A stretch of 64,000 nucleotides of DNA from an uncultured Methylophaga sp. GTDB lineage: Bacteria; Pseudomonadota; Gammaproteobacteria; Nitrosococcales; Methylophagaceae. The stretch is taken from contig CAJXKF010000003.1 of the NCBI GenBank assembly GCA_913055695.1, forward strand, positions 62,001-126,000, written 5' to 3'. Under the pieces are notes generated by a model, which did no database searches, was not told the origin of the DNA, and was given only the letters and a program-made list of their open reading frames with translations. Made by a program: the position numbers and the translations under genes. The stretch's first letter is position 1, and every line of letters begins with the position of its first letter. Of the stretch, positions 16,401 to 62,273 are shown in pieces.

Positions 16401-16441
16401 AAGGCTGATTCAGCCTTTTGATATGGACACCACGAGCCGCA

Positions 16442-18010
16442 ATGAGCTTTCCACTGCCAGCTAACATGCCTTCTCTCAGTCTGAGCATTCCGACCGAGCG
16501 GCATGCTGCCGGCAATGTTGAGCTCAATGAAGAACTGCTGCATCACTGGATCCGTCGACTGCCGGCAGACAAGCCGCTGGAATTTTGTACACGCTACCTC
16601 GATGCCCTGAAACGCTTCAACGCCAATGAAGTCAATCATGTTCAACGGATCAAACTGCTGGATATGTACCGCGTTCCGCTCAATAAGCTGGTTATGAACC
16701 TGTCCATACCCAAACTTCAGCAGCAGGTGACAAACCCTGACAAGCGTCTGAAGCTTATCGACGATATCAGTGAGGCCATCAATCAACTCGCGCGCGGCTA
16801 CAAAATTATCGTGGTCGAAGCGAATGAAGCCAGCAATAATCTCAAACTGAAACCGCTGGTACACATGGCGATCTACCGGGCTATCGAAGCCATGAGTCTG
16901 CTGGCCCTGCACAACTATAATTTTTACCGGACACTGCCGCAGCGCCTGTTCCAGGAGATGCATCAATTGCTGATGCTGACGATGACAGCCGGCATGGCCG
17001 ACAAGCCGGCCTTTGTGAACAGTCAGTACCAAGCCGACTTTTCTGTTCAGCAGCGCTATGTGCAGATCATGCTGACCAGCATCTGTAACCCCTACGGGCT
17101 GGCCTGTGGTGAGGTGCTCCGCTGTTATCAACTGATGCTGCAATTAGCCCCGGCCGCCTCGCTGGAACTGTTACCAGACAATGCCAGGCCTGAAGCCGGT
17201 CAGTTTTATATCAACTGTCTCAGTGATCGCACACCGACACCGTCGGTGCTGCCGCCGCTGGATGATAACTACCGGCCCACCACCTTGATGCTGGATACCA
17301 AACCGATTCTGACCCGGGTCGATAAACTGTTCGATCAGGCAGCGGCGCAAGGCGAGTTTCATCCTGCGGCCGAGAATATCCGGCTACTGCGTCAGCTGGC
17401 GCCTTATCTCAATACCTCCTATCAGCGTAAACAGCCGCGAGTGCCGGTGGAGGGGAATATACAGGCCTATGTGGCGGTGGGCCTCGACGCCATACATCAA
17501 AACGTCTCCAGCCCGATATCCCTTCCTGTAGCAGATGACCCCTGGCTTGACAGAAGCTGGGAAATTCTCAATAAAAACAGCTATGGCTATCTGCTGCAAA
17601 AGCGCAAAATCCGACTCGCCCATGATCTCAAAATCGGTGACTTTGTCGGTATTCTTGAACAGACTGATGGTCAGCCAAAACCCAGCCTCAAACTGGCCTC
17701 GGTTCGCTGGTTACGGACCGATGACTTCGAACAGAGCAAAATGGGCGTCAAATTTATCCATGGCGATGCCATTCCGGTGTTTTTTTCCGTCGCTGACAGC
17801 GAAACACGTCAACCGGCTTTTTTAATCCGGGAAAATACTTTGCAGCAGCAGCCTGCCATGCTGATTACCCGTCATGGTGTTCATGCAGCAAGTGGAGCGC
17901 TCGTTATCAAAACCGGCAAGAAACGTTTTAATTTTACGGTCCGGCCTGACAGGTTGTTAACTCAAAATGACAGTTTTGAATGTTTCACATTCAAAGACAT
18001 CTTGAACTGA
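16442..18010 (+). CDS. Large conserved hypothetical protein, possibly with a C-terminal PilZ-like domain
   Basis: A soluble 522-residue protein with no signal peptide or membrane segment. The N-terminal two thirds look alpha-helical, with many Leu/Gln-rich amphipathic stretches. From about residue 330 the character changes to beta: RKQPRVPVEG holds an RxxxR like the c-di-GMP-binding start of PilZ domains, and WEILNKNSYGYLLQ sits where the second PilZ motif (D/NxSxxG) would be, but the spacing is not canonical. It directly precedes, and is only 80 bp from, a huge GGDEF-EAL protein, which makes c-di-GMP binding plausible but unproven. ATG 16442 is chosen over an in-frame TTG at 16418. Similar proteins occur in other gammaproteobacteria (recollection). 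Confidence 0.7.
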   Translation: MSFPLPANMPSLSLSIPTERHAAGNVELNEELLHHWIRRLPADKPLEFCTRYLDALKRFNANEVNHVQRIKLLDMYRVPLNKLVMNLSIPKLQQQVTNPDKRLKLIDDISEAINQLARGYKIIVVEANEASNNLKLKPLVHMAIYRAIEAMSLLALHNYNFYRTLPQRLFQEMHQLLMLTMTAGMADKPAFVNSQYQADFSVQQRYVQIMLTSICNPYGLACGEVLRCYQLMLQLAPAASLELLPDNARPEAGQFYINCLSDRTPTPSVLPPLDDNYRPTTLMLDTKPILTRVDKLFDQAAAQGEFHPAAENIRLLRQLAPYLNTSYQRKQPRVPVEGNIQAYVAVGLDAIHQNVSSPISLPVADDPWLDRSWEILNKNSYGYLLQKRKIRLAHDLKIGDFVGILEQTDGQPKPSLKLASVRWLRTDDFEQSKMGVKFIHGDAIPVFFSVADSETRQPAFLIRENTLQQQPAMLITRHGVHAASGALVIKTGKKRFNFTVRPDRLLTQNDSFECFTFKDILN

Positions 18011-18090: not shown

Positions 18091-21000
18091 ATGCCTATTT
18101 CGCTGTTTCGCTTCGTATTCTTGTGCCTTCTGACTGCTCTGTCCCCCGGGTTAGCGGCATTTGAGGCGGCTGAGGCACGCGCCCCAGAAGCAGTTACTTT
18201 ACAGTTGAAGTGGGATTACCAGTTTCAGTTTGCCGGCTATATTGCGGCTAAGGAAAAGGGTTTTTACCAGGCAGAAGGTCTGGATGTCACGCTCAAGCCT
18301 CGTCGGCCCGGTATCAATGTGATCGAGCAGGTGACTCAGGGACAAGCCGAATATGGCGTGGGTGGCATGGGGATACTCAGCCACTATGCCCAAGGCGCTC
18401 CAATCAAGGCCCTCGCAGCCATTTTTCAGCATGATGCGCTTATCTTCATGAGTCTCGCCAACTCCGGTATCGTCAGCCCCTACGAGTTTGCCGGTAAAAA
18501 AATCATGTTTGATGAGACGACAGGCAATGACACCGTGCTCCGCGCCCTGCTGGATGATGCCGGCATTGATTTCAGTGATATCATTGCCGTTGAGCAGGAT
18601 ATGGACGTCCAGAGCCTGACTTCAGGCCGGGTGGATGTACTGTCCGGCTACATCACCGATCAGCCTTTTCAGTTCCAGCAGCAAAACACCGCCATAAACC
18701 TCATCAACCCGCCTAACTATGGCTTCGATTTTTACGGTGATCTGCTGTTTACCAACCGCACTGAGATCAACCAGCATCCGGGCCGTGTCAAACGCATGCT
18801 GCGTGCCTCGCTGAAAGGCTGGGAATACGCATTGCAGTATCCGGATGAGATCATTCAAATCATCCGCGACAAATACAATCCAGGGCTGAGTCTGGAACAG
18901 CTGCATTATGAAGCCCGGGAAACCCGCAAACTGATTGCACCGGACGCAATACCACTGGGCATGCTGGAAGTCGACCGTCTGCAGCGAATTGCTGATATCT
19001 ATGAACAACTGGGCATGGCTGCCGAGCTCAATCAGAGCAAGCTGCAGCAATTTATTTACAGGCCTTCCCTGACCGCTATTCTCAGTCCGGCCGAACAGAT
19101 TTGGCTGGAGCAGCATCCACGGATCCGGGTCGGTGTCGATCGCGATTTCGCCCCTTACGAGTGGATTGATGAAGACGGCAATTATGTCGGCCTCGCCGCA
19201 GAATATCTGAAACTGCTGGAAACCGAACTCGGCGTCAGTTTTGAAATTATCGCCGATAAACCCTGGCATGAAATTATTGCCATGGCCAAAAACGGCGAAC
19301 TGGATATGCTCTCCTGTCTGAATATGAATGAGGAGCGGGATGAGTACCTCGAATTCACCATGCCCTACGTCAGTAACCCGATTGTCATCGTCAATGCCAA
19401 CCGCCATGGCTACATCGGCTCGCTGGATAATCTCAAAGGCAAAACCATCGCAGTCGAAAAAGGCTACTTCACCCATGAATTACTGCAGAACGAATACCCT
19501 GATATAACCCTGCTCACTGCCGGCAACACCCGCGAAGCGCTGGAAATGGTCTCTACCGGCGAGGCTGATGCCTATATCGGCGACGCCGCCTATGCCAATT
19601 TTGCGATTAAAGAGCATGATCTGCTCAACCTGCAGTTTGCCGGGCAGACCACTTTTGATACCGCCTACCGCATCGGCGTCGTCGAAAACAGACCGGAATT
19701 GTTCAGCATCATCAACAAGGCGCTGAACAACCTGAGCAAGGCACAGCGCCAGGAAATCGAAAACAAGTGGATGGGCCTGCACCTGACCAGCGGCATCAGT
19801 ACCAAAACGGTTCGCCAGCTCATCCTGCTCCTGTTGTTAGTGCTGTTGCCGGTGGCCTACTGGGTGTTTCGTCTGCGTCAATCCAAAACCGCACTGGAGA
19901 GGAGTGAAGGCCAGCTGCGCGCGATTATCGATGCGTCTCCTATCCCGCATGCCATACTCGATGCAGACAGCAACATCACTTACCTTAACCGGGCATTCAC
20001 TGATACCTATGGCTATAGCCTCGATGATATTCCCAATTTAGCCGCATGGTGGCCACAGGCCTATCCCAACCCCGGCTATCGTGAACAGGTCAAGCAGCGC
20101 TGGCAGCACTATCTGGACCGGCAGCATACCGGAGAGTCACATACTGATGCCATTGAGGCTGACATTTTCTGTAAAGACCGCAAGTTCCGGCACGTATTGG
20201 CCAGCGCCACTGACGTCAAACACGGTAATGGCTGGTCACAGGTGATCATTCTCTACGATATTTCCGATCGCAAGAAAGCGGAAGAGCGGCTCAAAATGTC
20301 TGGTCGTGTGTTTAATCAGGCCCATGAAGGTATTCTGATTACTGATGCAGAGGGTCATATTGTCGACGTGAATCCGGCTTTCTCTGAGATCACCGGCTAC
20401 ACCCGTGAGGAAGTCATCGGTAAAGACCCGTCGATTCTGCGTTCAGACAGACATAGCCGCCTGTTCTATCAGGAAATGTGGAACAGCCTGCATGAAAACG
20501 GGCTGTGGCAGGGCGAGATCTGGAACCGCAAAAAAAGTGGCGAGCTGTACGCCGAGCTGTTGACTATCTCAGCGCTGGTCGATGAGCATGGCGACACCGT
20601 CAACTATCTGGGCCTGTCCTCTGATATTACCCAGAGCAAGGAACAGCAGCAGGCGCTGGAAATGATGGCGCATTACGACATGCTGACCCAGTTGCCCAAC
20701 CGCAGTCTGTTTGCCGATCGTTTCAAACAGGCGATAGCCCACAGTAACCGGCATCACAGTCTGCTTGCCGTGGTGTTTCTTGATCTGGACGGCTTTAAAC
20801 CGGTCAACGACCGTTACGGTCATGACACCGGTGACCAGCTTCTTATCGAGGTCGCCCAGCGGATCAAGGCCAGTATCCGCCAGGATGATACGGCATCGAG
20901 ACTGGGGGGAGACGAGTTCGTTCTGCTGCTTAATGACATCAGCTCGATTGAACACTGCGAACGGCTGATAAAACGTATCCGTCACGCGATTGAACTGCCC

Positions 21001-22356
21001 TATGTACTTGATGGTGACACACTCTCGCTCAGTGCCAGTTTGGGCATAACCCTGTACCCGCTGGATCAGGCAGATGCCGATACACTGCTGCGTCATGCCG
21101 ATCAGGCCATGTATCAGGCCAAACTCGCAGGCCGCGGCCGCCATCACTTTTTTGATGCCATGCATGATCAGCAGATCAGTCAGCAGCAAAATCAGTTCCG
21201 CGCCATCCAGGAAGCCTTGCGGGCTGATCAACTGGTGCTGTGTTACCAGCCCAAGGTCAATATGCGTAGCGGCGACGTCATTGGCCTGGAAGCCCTGATT
21301 CGCTGGCAGCATCCTGAGCATGGTCTGATATCACCGAGTCGTTTTCTGTCCGTGATTCAGGGTACTGAACTCGAAATTCACGTTGGTAACTGGGTGCTGG
21401 AACACACCGTGAGACAGATTGAGTCCTGGCTCAATAAGGGCATCAGGCAGGAAATCAGCGTTAATATCTCCTCGCACCATCTGCAATGGGAAGGCTTTTT
21501 TGATCAACTGGACAGAATCCTGGGTCGTCATCCGCGGGTGCCATCCAAGCTTTTGCAACTGGAGATCCTCGAAAGCAGCGTATTGAGTGATATCAATCAT
21601 ATCTCCAGCATTATTAATACCTGCCGGAGTTCACTGGGTATTCGTATTGCCCTTGATGATTTCGGCACCGGCTATTCGTCATTGACTCATTTGCGCCATC
21701 TGCCGGTCGACGTGGTGAAAATTGATCAGAGCTTTGTTCAGGATTTGATTGACGATCCTAATGATTTCACGATTATCGACGGCGTTATCGGCCTGACTGA
21801 AGCCTTCCATCATCAGGTCATTGCCGAAGGGGTGGAAACCATCGAACACGGATTGATGCTGATGAGCATGGGCTGCGATATGGCACAGGGTTATATTATC
21901 GCCAAGCCGATGTCCGCTGATGACTGTGAGCAATGGCTGGCCCATTATCAACCCAATCCTGTCTGGCTGGCTCAGGCTGCCAAAAGCCTCAATGCCGAAC
22001 AGACTATCGCTCAGATGATGCAACTGCAGGCCCGTCACTGGCTGGGTGGCATTTTGCATAATCTGCAAACCAGTCCCGACCAGATCCGCCACTGGCCGCT
22101 GATGAATCATAAGAAAAGCCACTTCATGCACTGGGTGGAACAGGCCAAAAAACAGGATTTATTCAATAAAGCATGGCTGGAAAACATCCGTGCCGCCTTT
22201 ATTGAGCTTTACCATGAAGCCAACAGCCTGCGGTATCAGTATCAGGAAGGCCAACGTGATGCAGCGGCCGCCGGGATTGAGGGTCTGCTGGCGCGCTACC
22301 GGAGTATTGAATCCCTGCTAGCGGAATATCTGGCTGAGGGAGATGCCCGGAGCTAA
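18091..22356 (+). CDS. Giant membrane c-di-GMP protein: NMT1/THI5-like, SBP_bac_3, TM, PAS, PAS, GGDEF, EAL, CZB-like
   Basis: A 1421-residue sensor. After a signal peptide come two periplasmic binding-protein-like domains. The first (about residues 35-330, TLQLKWDYQFQFAGYIAAKE) resembles NMT1/THI5 pyrimidine- or nitrate/taurine-type receptors. The second (340-565, RIRVGVDRDFAPYEWIDEDG) resembles amino-acid receptors. One membrane helix lies near residues 576-594, then two PAS domains. The GGDEF motif is intact at 939-943 with an RxxD inhibitory site (RQDD) five residues before it. EAL is intact at 1067-1069 with DDFGTGYSSL further on. The last 120 residues contain KSHFMHW and LYHEANSL, like a zinc-binding CZB domain. 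Both synthesis and hydrolysis of c-di-GMP are therefore possible. ATG 18091 is chosen because a signal peptide follows; the frame opens at 17980. Confidence 0.9.
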   Translation: MPISLFRFVFLCLLTALSPGLAAFEAAEARAPEAVTLQLKWDYQFQFAGYIAAKEKGFYQAEGLDVTLKPRRPGINVIEQVTQGQAEYGVGGMGILSHYAQGAPIKALAAIFQHDALIFMSLANSGIVSPYEFAGKKIMFDETTGNDTVLRALLDDAGIDFSDIIAVEQDMDVQSLTSGRVDVLSGYITDQPFQFQQQNTAINLINPPNYGFDFYGDLLFTNRTEINQHPGRVKRMLRASLKGWEYALQYPDEIIQIIRDKYNPGLSLEQLHYEARETRKLIAPDAIPLGMLEVDRLQRIADIYEQLGMAAELNQSKLQQFIYRPSLTAILSPAEQIWLEQHPRIRVGVDRDFAPYEWIDEDGNYVGLAAEYLKLLETELGVSFEIIADKPWHEIIAMAKNGELDMLSCLNMNEERDEYLEFTMPYVSNPIVIVNANRHGYIGSLDNLKGKTIAVEKGYFTHELLQNEYPDITLLTAGNTREALEMVSTGEADAYIGDAAYANFAIKEHDLLNLQFAGQTTFDTAYRIGVVENRPELFSIINKALNNLSKAQRQEIENKWMGLHLTSGISTKTVRQLILLLLLVLLPVAYWVFRLRQSKTALERSEGQLRAIIDASPIPHAILDADSNITYLNRAFTDTYGYSLDDIPNLAAWWPQAYPNPGYREQVKQRWQHYLDRQHTGESHTDAIEADIFCKDRKFRHVLASATDVKHGNGWSQVIILYDISDRKKAEERLKMSGRVFNQAHEGILITDAEGHIVDVNPAFSEITGYTREEVIGKDPSILRSDRHSRLFYQEMWNSLHENGLWQGEIWNRKKSGELYAELLTISALVDEHGDTVNYLGLSSDITQSKEQQQALEMMAHYDMLTQLPNRSLFADRFKQAIAHSNRHHSLLAVVFLDLDGFKPVNDRYGHDTGDQLLIEVAQRIKASIRQDDTASRLGGDEFVLLLNDISSIEHCERLIKRIRHAIELPYVLDGDTLSLSASLGITLYPLDQADADTLLRHADQAMYQAKLAGRGRHHFFDAMHDQQISQQQNQFRAIQEALRADQLVLCYQPKVNMRSGDVIGLEALIRWQHPEHGLISPSRFLSVIQGTELEIHVGNWVLEHTVRQIESWLNKGIRQEISVNISSHHLQWEGFFDQLDRILGRHPRVPSKLLQLEILESSVLSDINHISSIINTCRSSLGIRIALDDFGTGYSSLTHLRHLPVDVVKIDQSFVQDLIDDPNDFTIIDGVIGLTEAFHHQVIAEGVETIEHGLMLMSMGCDMAQGYIIAKPMSADDCEQWLAHYQPNPVWLAQAAKSLNAEQTIAQMMQLQARHWLGGILHNLQTSPDQIRHWPLMNHKKSHFMHWVEQAKKQDLFNKAWLENIRAAFIELYHEANSLRYQYQEGQRDAAAAGIEGLLARYRSIESLLAEYLAEGDARS

Positions 22357-61757: not shown

Positions 61758-62273
61758 TTATTGCTGCAATTTCTGCATGCTGTCCTGTGCACCCATCGCC
61801 TCGGCCAGCATCAATGCGGTTTTACCATCTTGAGTCGCAGCATGTTTATCCGCGCCCTTCTCCAGCAACAAATCGATAATCTCTGTCTGATTAAACATCG
61901 CGGCAAACATCAGAGGGGTTTTACCATCAGGTGTGGTGGCATTCACATTGGCACCATATTCAATCAGCAAGGCGGCAATATCAGCATAGCCCTTGAAAGC
62001 CACACCGGCCAGAGGCGTTTGCTGCCGGTCATTTGCCAGCTCCGGATCAGCACCGTTTTCCAGCAGCAGTTTAGTCATTGCATAGTGGCCGTTATAACTC
62101 GCCAGCATCAGCAGACTGTCGCCGTTGCCATTTCTGAGATTTGCCGGCAGCCCCATTGCCAGTGGCTGCGCCAATTCGGCAGTCCGGCCTGACCGGACCA
62201 GTTCAAAAACTGTCTGCGCCAGCTCCAAAGTCTGTTCGTCCATTTCTGAAATATCCGCTGTGTTTTCGTTCAT
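61758..62273 (-). CDS. Ankyrin-repeat protein next to catalase
   Basis: A 171-residue protein with four ankyrin repeats (GDSLLMLASYNGHYAMTKLL, QTPLAGVAFKGYADIAALLI, KTPLMFAAMFNQTEIIDLLL, KTALMLAEAMG). No signal peptide is present, so it is cytoplasmic, unlike the periplasmic AnkB that accompanies KatB in Pseudomonas. It is divergent from the catalase gene, 373 bp apart. A role in catalase protection or assembly is inferred from this known ankyrin-catalase association. Confidence 0.85.
   Translation of the reverse strand: MNENTADISEMDEQTLELAQTVFELVRSGRTAELAQPLAMGLPANLRNGNGDSLLMLASYNGHYAMTKLLLENGADPELANDRQQTPLAGVAFKGYADIAALLIEYGANVNATTPDGKTPLMFAAMFNQTEIIDLLLEKGADKHAATQDGKTALMLAEAMGAQDSMQKLQQ

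Follow-up and report, generated by a model that had tools for sequence, protein, structure and literature searches.

A probable tandem-receptor c-di-GMP regulator of Methylophaga whose CZB-derived tail has lost the zinc ligands

RmcA (PA0575) of Pseudomonas aeruginosa is a membrane-bound sensor that couples nutrients to cyclic di-GMP (c-di-GMP) (PMC9028604; PMC8846402). Its GGDEF-EAL pair is described as a phosphodiesterase that depends on guanosine triphosphate (GTP), and the protein responds to arginine through a flytrap domain (PMC9028604). Within the periplasmic binding protein (PBP) clan, SBP_bac_3 is, according to a 2022 review, the only family that had been studied in c-di-GMP networks (PMC8846402). 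The CZB domain, described as a sensor of zinc and bleach, can also be tied to c-di-GMP enzymes. In a CZB survey, its 3His/1Cys motif is called ubiquitous and its Cys universally conserved, an EAL-CZB class is depicted, and CZB-regulated EAL proteins account for 3.4% of CZB sequences; the same survey gives DgcZ (YdeH) of Escherichia coli an N-terminal CZB, an intact zinc site with His22 and residue 52 among its positions, and no EAL domain (PMC8262984). Here we describe a protein encoded by an uncultured Methylophaga sp. on the forward strand of contig CAJXKF010000003.1 (GCA_913055695.1), within positions 62,001 to 126,000; this whole stretch of 64,000 nucleotides is called the window, and its positions are used throughout. 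The protein joins known domains in a new combination and carries one of them in a ligand-free form; it is not a new kind of system.

The source genome is 2.6 Mb in size. The 1421-codon frame runs uninterrupted from the ATG at 18091, as a single chain, in agreement with an initial annotation of this DNA. The open frame extends upstream as far as 17980, and 18091 is taken as the start because a hydrophobic signal-like stretch begins there (hydropathy), as it does in the orthologs. The domain architecture is confirmed by Pfam, with scores over the cut-offs for NMT1, SBP_bac_3, both PAS stretches, GGDEF and EAL, and the NMT1-like domain, amino-acid-type receptor and two PAS domains of the initial annotation were all recovered. 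The layout of RmcA, with an SBP_bac_3 periplasmic domain, PAS, GGDEF and EAL, is present. Our literature search found no paper joining NMT1 with GGDEF, EAL and c-di-GMP. The features are as follows.

18091-22356, forward strand: open reading frame (ORF) of 1421 amino acids, with NMT1, SBP_bac_3, transmembrane (TM) segment, PAS, PAS, GGDEF, EAL and CZB-derived tail in that order
18091-18159, forward strand: probable signal sequence, about residues 1-23 (hydropathy and sequence inspection)
18220-18849, forward strand: NMT1 (THI5/ThiY-like) periplasmic binding domain, residues 44-253 (Pfam E 7.9e-54)
19123-19776, forward strand: SBP_bac_3 binding domain, residues 345-562 (Pfam E 2.7e-26), with R416 and D498 conserved
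19816-19869, forward strand: single TM segment, about residues 576-593 (hydropathy maximum at 577-595)
19921-20256, forward strand: first PAS, probably about residues 611-722 (Pfam lists PAS in two stretches)
20326-20634, forward strand: second PAS, residues 746-848 (PAS_9, the best PAS match, Pfam E 8.4e-26)
20668-21138, forward strand: GGDEF domain, residues 860-1016 (Pfam E 1.5e-49), with GGDEF at 939-943 and the I-site RxxD at 930-933
21202-21909, forward strand: EAL domain, residues 1038-1273 (Pfam E 6e-71)
21913-22353, forward strand: CZB-derived helical tail, residues 1275-1421 (homology; predicted helical bundle)
22030-22032, forward strand: A1314, at the His22 ligand position of DgcZ (tail alignment)
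22117-22122, forward strand: S1343, at the Cys52 position of DgcZ, followed by the ortholog-conserved H1344 (tail alignment)
22198-22215, forward strand: F1370 and Y1374, at the His79 and His83 positions of DgcZ (tail alignment)
within 22198-22215, forward strand: E1372 and H1375, ortholog-conserved, with E or D at the first (tail alignment)

We consider it rather probable that this protein is an RmcA-like inner-membrane one-component regulator of c-di-GMP, likely a net phosphodiesterase, with a zinc-free tail derived from CZB. Its periplasmic part would consist of two tandem Venus-flytrap domains, an NMT1 domain of thiamin/pyrimidine type followed by an RmcA-like SBP_bac_3 domain, and ligand binding would close one or both of them. 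By analogy to RmcA, the signal would pass through the single TM helix and the two PAS domains to the GGDEF-EAL pair, where GTP bound by GGDEF most likely acts as an allosteric activator. The output of the gated EAL domain would then be c-di-GMP hydrolysis. The tail is probably a structural, dimerising or regulatory bundle on EAL and not a sensor of zinc or bleach. The domain order, the intact catalytic motifs, the origin of the tail in CZB, its ligand loss and the constraint on it are shown by the data below; the ligands, the direction of signalling, the net enzyme activity and the role of the tail are what we infer.

On the periplasmic side, the RmcA PBP domain (7ejg, 37% identity) is the best solved single-domain relative of the SBP_bac_3 domain; BvgS outscores it only when its two domains are summed. 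Both R416 and D498, which we take to be the usual amino-acid-ligand anchors of the family, are kept in all 13 full-length copies. The NMT1 domain (PF09084) scored 183.2 bits against a cut-off of 20.5, and NMT1_2 gave 21.4 bits, under its cut-off of 24.7. The best PDB sequence matches of this domain are 4nmy (thiamin-bound) and 3ix1 (pyrimidine-binding), and the six matches comprise a thiamin-bound protein, ThiY and THI5-type enzymes. Because NMT1_2 fell below its cut-off and the PDB matches are of thiamin, ThiY or THI5 type, nitrate or sulfonate appears a weaker candidate ligand than pyrimidine or thiamin. The pyrimidine part of the earlier ligand proposal is thus favoured over its nitrate and sulfonate parts. 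The broader proposal of a nutrient-to-c-di-GMP sensor is supported, as an inference, by the intact GGDEF and EAL, the RmcA-like SBP domain and the NMT1 relatives that bind thiamin or pyrimidine. In the structure model of the periplasmic part, the two best Foldseek matches are BvgS and EvgS.

At E up to 1e-40, a search of 369 genomes from the class matched the periplasmic part in 42, a count that includes the own genome. Fourteen other tandem proteins, from nine genomes, were picked since the match spans both NMT1 and SBP_bac_3, and all were scanned for domains. As expected from this selection, each has NMT1 and then SBP_bac_3. The outputs are GGDEF (eight proteins), histidine kinase (four) and SpoIIE phosphatase (two), and the tandem is therefore a unit common to several outputs. 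At E up to 1e-5, the scans of these 14 proteins listed neither EAL nor CZB; what is unusual in the window protein is that the tandem input is paired with EAL and a CZB-derived tail.

Catalytic motifs of both enzyme domains are intact in 13/13 full-length copies aligned (window protein included), and the RxxD I-site is present in 12/13. The window protein has intact GGDEF, DLDxFKxxND and I-site motifs, and its EAL domain shows EALIRW, SVNISS, LEILES, DDFGTGYSS, VKID, AEGVET and AQGY, the sixth of which reads AEGVES in 6/13 copies. The intact GGDEF with I-site and intact EAL of the initial annotation are borne out, and neither domain looks catalytically dead. In NCBIfam, the four best models are phosphodiesterases, all below their cut-offs, with DibA (NF045675) first at 573 bits (equivalog cut-off 980 bits). 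By analogy to RmcA, the net output is probably c-di-GMP hydrolysis. The opposite sign, a net diguanylate cyclase that raises c-di-GMP upon nutrient binding, is unlikely in our judgement but deserves weight: its three cyclase-side motifs are all intact, and GGDEF occurs without EAL in eight of the 14 other tandem-input proteins. However, the EAL motifs are just as intact, and the top-scoring named families are phosphodiesterases.

The tail was aligned with E. coli DgcZ, 10 CZB domains from Methylophaga genomes, nine EAL-CZB tails, five Methylophaga paralogs and 16 orthologs, to which four beta-methylotroph tails were added (family of Methylobacillus, 4/100 genomes matched). L093 was omitted as a near-duplicate of L092, L021 stops before the tail, and the G397 ortholog stands outside the counts. 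We take His79 and His83 to be the numbering of the other two DgcZ zinc ligands, and both are His in all 20 DgcZ, CZB and EAL-CZB rows. In the window protein, H22, C52, H79 and H83 correspond to A1314, S1343, F1370 and Y1374; the 3His/1Cys site is absent, and the histidines of the tail sit at positions other than the ligand positions. Outside the orthologs, H22 is present in DgcZ, 9/10 CZB rows and 7/9 EAL-CZB rows and absent from the paralogs (0/5) and beta tails (0/4), and C52, H79 and H83 are kept in every row (9/9 for EAL-CZB tails). In the orthologs (16 aligned plus L036, which was read by eye and has none of the four ligands), H22, H79 and H83 are each found in 0/17 and C52 in 6/17.

On a tree of 28 GGDEF-EAL regions, with the tail excluded and L085 and L090 not included, H22, H79 and H83 each require a single change, and C52 requires two. 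The order of events follows from this tree and suggests a stepwise loss of H22, then of H79 and H83, and then of the Cys at least twice. H22 is also absent from the distant row L086, and its loss may therefore not be one event. In the nine paralog and beta-methylotroph tails that lack H22 and keep C52, H79 and H83, a His directly follows the Cys (9/9), as in 0/17 H22-bearing rows; L083, L086 and L097, which have no H22, carry Pro or Arg there. This His is a possible substitute fourth ligand. L003 (C2:337786-339870), a paralog in the own genome, differs in its N-terminal part and ends in GGDEF-EAL followed by a CZB tail in which C, H and H, but not H22, are retained.

Without these ligands the tail still evolves under constraint. 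Averaged over 12 orthologs, identity to the window protein is 48.3% in the tail, compared with 80.9% in GGDEF, 69.2% in EAL and 40.0% in the first PAS. Ratios of non-synonymous to synonymous divergence (dN/dS) in the tail were computed by Nei-Gojobori for seven pairs. They were 0.049 for window/L009 (dS 1.97), 0.029 for L014/L016 (dS 2.53), 0.028 for L016/L018, 0.039 for L018/L020, 0 for L017/L019 and 0.153 for L016/L020, where dS was only 0.07; the ratio for L011/L012 was not computable (dS saturated), and in this pair the tail had a higher dN, 0.126, than any other domain. Overall, the tail diverges more quickly than the enzymes do, yet far from neutrally.

In the ortholog tails, DgcZ position 53 is His (17/17), position 81 is E or D (17/17) and position 84 is His (17/17); these conserved residues could point to a new site or to an interface, or may simply reflect shared descent. 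It is improbable, to our minds, that H1344, E1372 and H1375 form a new metal or ligand site that replaces the canonical one. The fuller version of this idea, in which a zinc-sensing CZB was converted stepwise under continuing selection into a different sensor, with aromatic and small residues taking over the Cys/His site and the adjacent trio binding another metal or small ligand that controls EAL, is equally a long shot. In favour of a new site, the His at 53 also occurs in 5/5 Methylophaga paralogs and 4/4 beta-methylotroph tails, which lack H22 and keep C, H and H, and position 84 is variable in the non-ortholog relatives. However, H53 predates the loss of H79 and H83, and it is missing from L083, L086 and L097, three further rows without H22. 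Conservation alone is no proof of a site, because the orthologs have one common ancestor.

A working CZB that feeds zinc, or hypochlorous acid as in DgcZ, into c-di-GMP levels is very improbable. The initial annotation had described a CZB-like domain with zinc-type histidines and a zinc input into c-di-GMP, and the tail is indeed homologous to CZB tails with intact ligands; further, 5/6 of the ortholog tails that keep Cys52 weakly match Pfam CZB, at E 3.5e-4 (L023) to 0.0275 (L011). However, all four ligand positions of the window protein are replaced, including the redox-switch Cys, and the search of its C-terminus found no Pfam CZB (PF13682) match at E up to 1, the outcome that the initial annotation had named as counting against it. 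Neither the zinc-type histidines nor the zinc input survives, and canonical zinc sensing through the CZB site, with its ligand positions substituted by A, S, F and Y, is not supported and was rejected. Elsewhere in the same genome, L031 (C2:3688-3873) is a 302-aa ORF, CheW-like by sequence, with a CZB over the Pfam cut-off that has all four ligands; the cell therefore encodes an intact CZB.

Descent of the tail from CZB is shown by its relatives, since family members match PF13682 and the EAL-following tails of relatives align with it. Matches to PF13682 at E up to 1 were obtained for 9/17 members of the tail family (best 1.3e-5), and the tail of an own-genome paralog (C3:134154) reached 27.1 CZB bits, where the cut-off is 29.4. 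Searching with a family profile gave 25 matches in 16/369 genomes of the class, the own genome and 15 further ones. The three own-genome matches and nine others were read; each of the nine begins directly after the EAL signature and carries the CZB Cys and both His. W1317 lies three residues after the His22 position, with Trp in 16/16 ortholog rows, and the CZB survey describes a Trp so placed for a diguanylate cyclase CZB subgroup (PMC8262984). The AlphaFold model of the tail has helices at 28-51, 70-80, 86-111 and 116-146 (tail numbering), with a mean predicted local distance difference test score (pLDDT) of 87.7. VIA-align placed the DgcZ CZB (3t9o_B) sixth in its list (Z 11.9, root-mean-square deviation 2.9, 115 aligned), a Z that fits the CZB fold and yet, lying within the range that the tool quotes for unrelated helical bundles, does not decide the matter. 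Foldseek gave no PDB match under E 0.001, a profile of the tail alignment found no CZB chain among PDB sequences (best E 0.078), and a search of a plasmid collection with the tail gave no match. We read the tail as a diverged CZB that shares common descent with the EAL-CZB tails of other proteins, and the CZB-like domain of the initial annotation holds as a relationship, through the homology of relatives, and not as a Pfam match of the window tail itself. That it is an unrelated helical extension, like CZB by convergence, is hardly credible: the two structural searches and the PDB profile would allow it, but the family profile reaches 15 further genomes, the nine tails read keep their place after EAL and their CZB residues, and more than half of the family matches Pfam CZB.

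Several points nevertheless weigh against the proposed nutrient-responsive phosphodiesterase with a constrained tail. No NCBIfam equivalog cut-off was passed among the matches listed (25 of 56), and the intact GGDEF and I-site motifs make net c-di-GMP synthesis possible. The ligands suggested for both periplasmic domains derive from family resemblance, domains of the BvgS type are able to signal without a known ligand, and confidence in the structure model of the periplasmic part is intermediate (mean pLDDT 71.4, predicted template modelling score 0.51). For window/L009, dN is 0.096 in the tail, 0.023 in GGDEF and 0.032 in EAL; the tail diverges more quickly than either enzyme domain, and its constraint is therefore weaker. 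Further, the neighbouring genes lend no support to a nutrient link. In a tblastn check of 18 loci, several of them short or holding paralogs, amtB-glnK lay beside the gene only in L034, and a nitrogen link through an adjacent amtB-glnK was rejected.

Just upstream of the gene, at 16418-18010, lies a 530-aa ORF without a Pfam or NCBIfam match. In L034 and L045 relatives of this ORF likewise precede the gene, but none turned up in the interval from trmL to the gene in L035 or L037-L039. On these grounds we rejected the idea that the ORF encodes a c-di-GMP receptor, whether PilZ or another. Among close relatives, L016 compared with L018 and L020 shows 83-100% identity in 40-residue windows, falling to 50-77% across the TM segment and first PAS (about residues 550-710 of the orthologs), with dS saturated in the first PAS. 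This segment appears to have undergone mosaic exchange between close relatives. Two copies look broken, that of L039 (Methylophaga sulfidovorans DSM 11578), with no match to residues 484-607, and that of L023 (G022), with a frame change near residues 551-563; assembly or sequencing error is possible in both.

In this clade, a CZB tail has lost all His ligands and, in most of the members read, the Cys too, yet stays constrained. Ligand loss under constraint separates the zinc site from other roles that CZB may have, for example in dimerising or in controlling EAL directly. Related EAL proteins carry intact, three-ligand and ligand-free forms, which offer a natural series for probing these roles. 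The tandem NMT1-SBP_bac_3 input, which occurs with outputs of several kinds, is also within easy reach of ligand screens. A ligand-free CZB may already be in print elsewhere.

Compared with known systems, the window protein shares with RmcA the SBP_bac_3 flytrap (7ejg), PAS and GGDEF-EAL; RmcA is described with one periplasmic arginine domain, whereas the window protein adds NMT1 before it and the CZB-derived tail after EAL. The same input is found in tandem NMT1-SBP_bac_3 receptors from other members of the GTDB class Gammaproteobacteria, but their outputs are GGDEF, kinase or SpoIIE. BvgS and EvgS also have two periplasmic flytrap domains in tandem, but both of theirs are SBP_bac_3 and the first of the window protein is NMT1; where the second flytrap domain of BvgS (VFT2) has Thr, the SBP domain of the window protein keeps Asp in the alignment. 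BvgS is a sensor kinase and EvgS is named as one, an output that differs from the GGDEF-EAL of the window protein. DgcZ likewise ties a CZB-type bundle to a c-di-GMP enzyme, but its CZB is N-terminal, with the zinc site intact and no EAL, whereas the tail here is C-terminal, after EAL and without ligands. L051 of Methylobacillus sp. MM3 (open frame of 1314 codons; domains read from the tblastn match and motifs) has the same NMT1-SBP_bac_3-TM-PAS-GGDEF-EAL plan with a CZB-type tail, but this tail keeps C52, H79 and H83; it has no match to window residues 648-722 and is therefore read as having one PAS, not two. By its periplasmic half, L051 is sister to the Methylophaga group (Shimodaira-Hasegawa-like approximate likelihood ratio test, SH-aLRT, 95), but by its GGDEF-EAL half it falls with other proteins of beta-methylotrophs (91/85), and its history is therefore mixed. 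Finally, the EAL-CZB proteins of the survey also place a CZB-type domain next to EAL; the survey calls the 3His/1Cys motif of CZB ubiquitous, whereas the window tail keeps no ligand residue.

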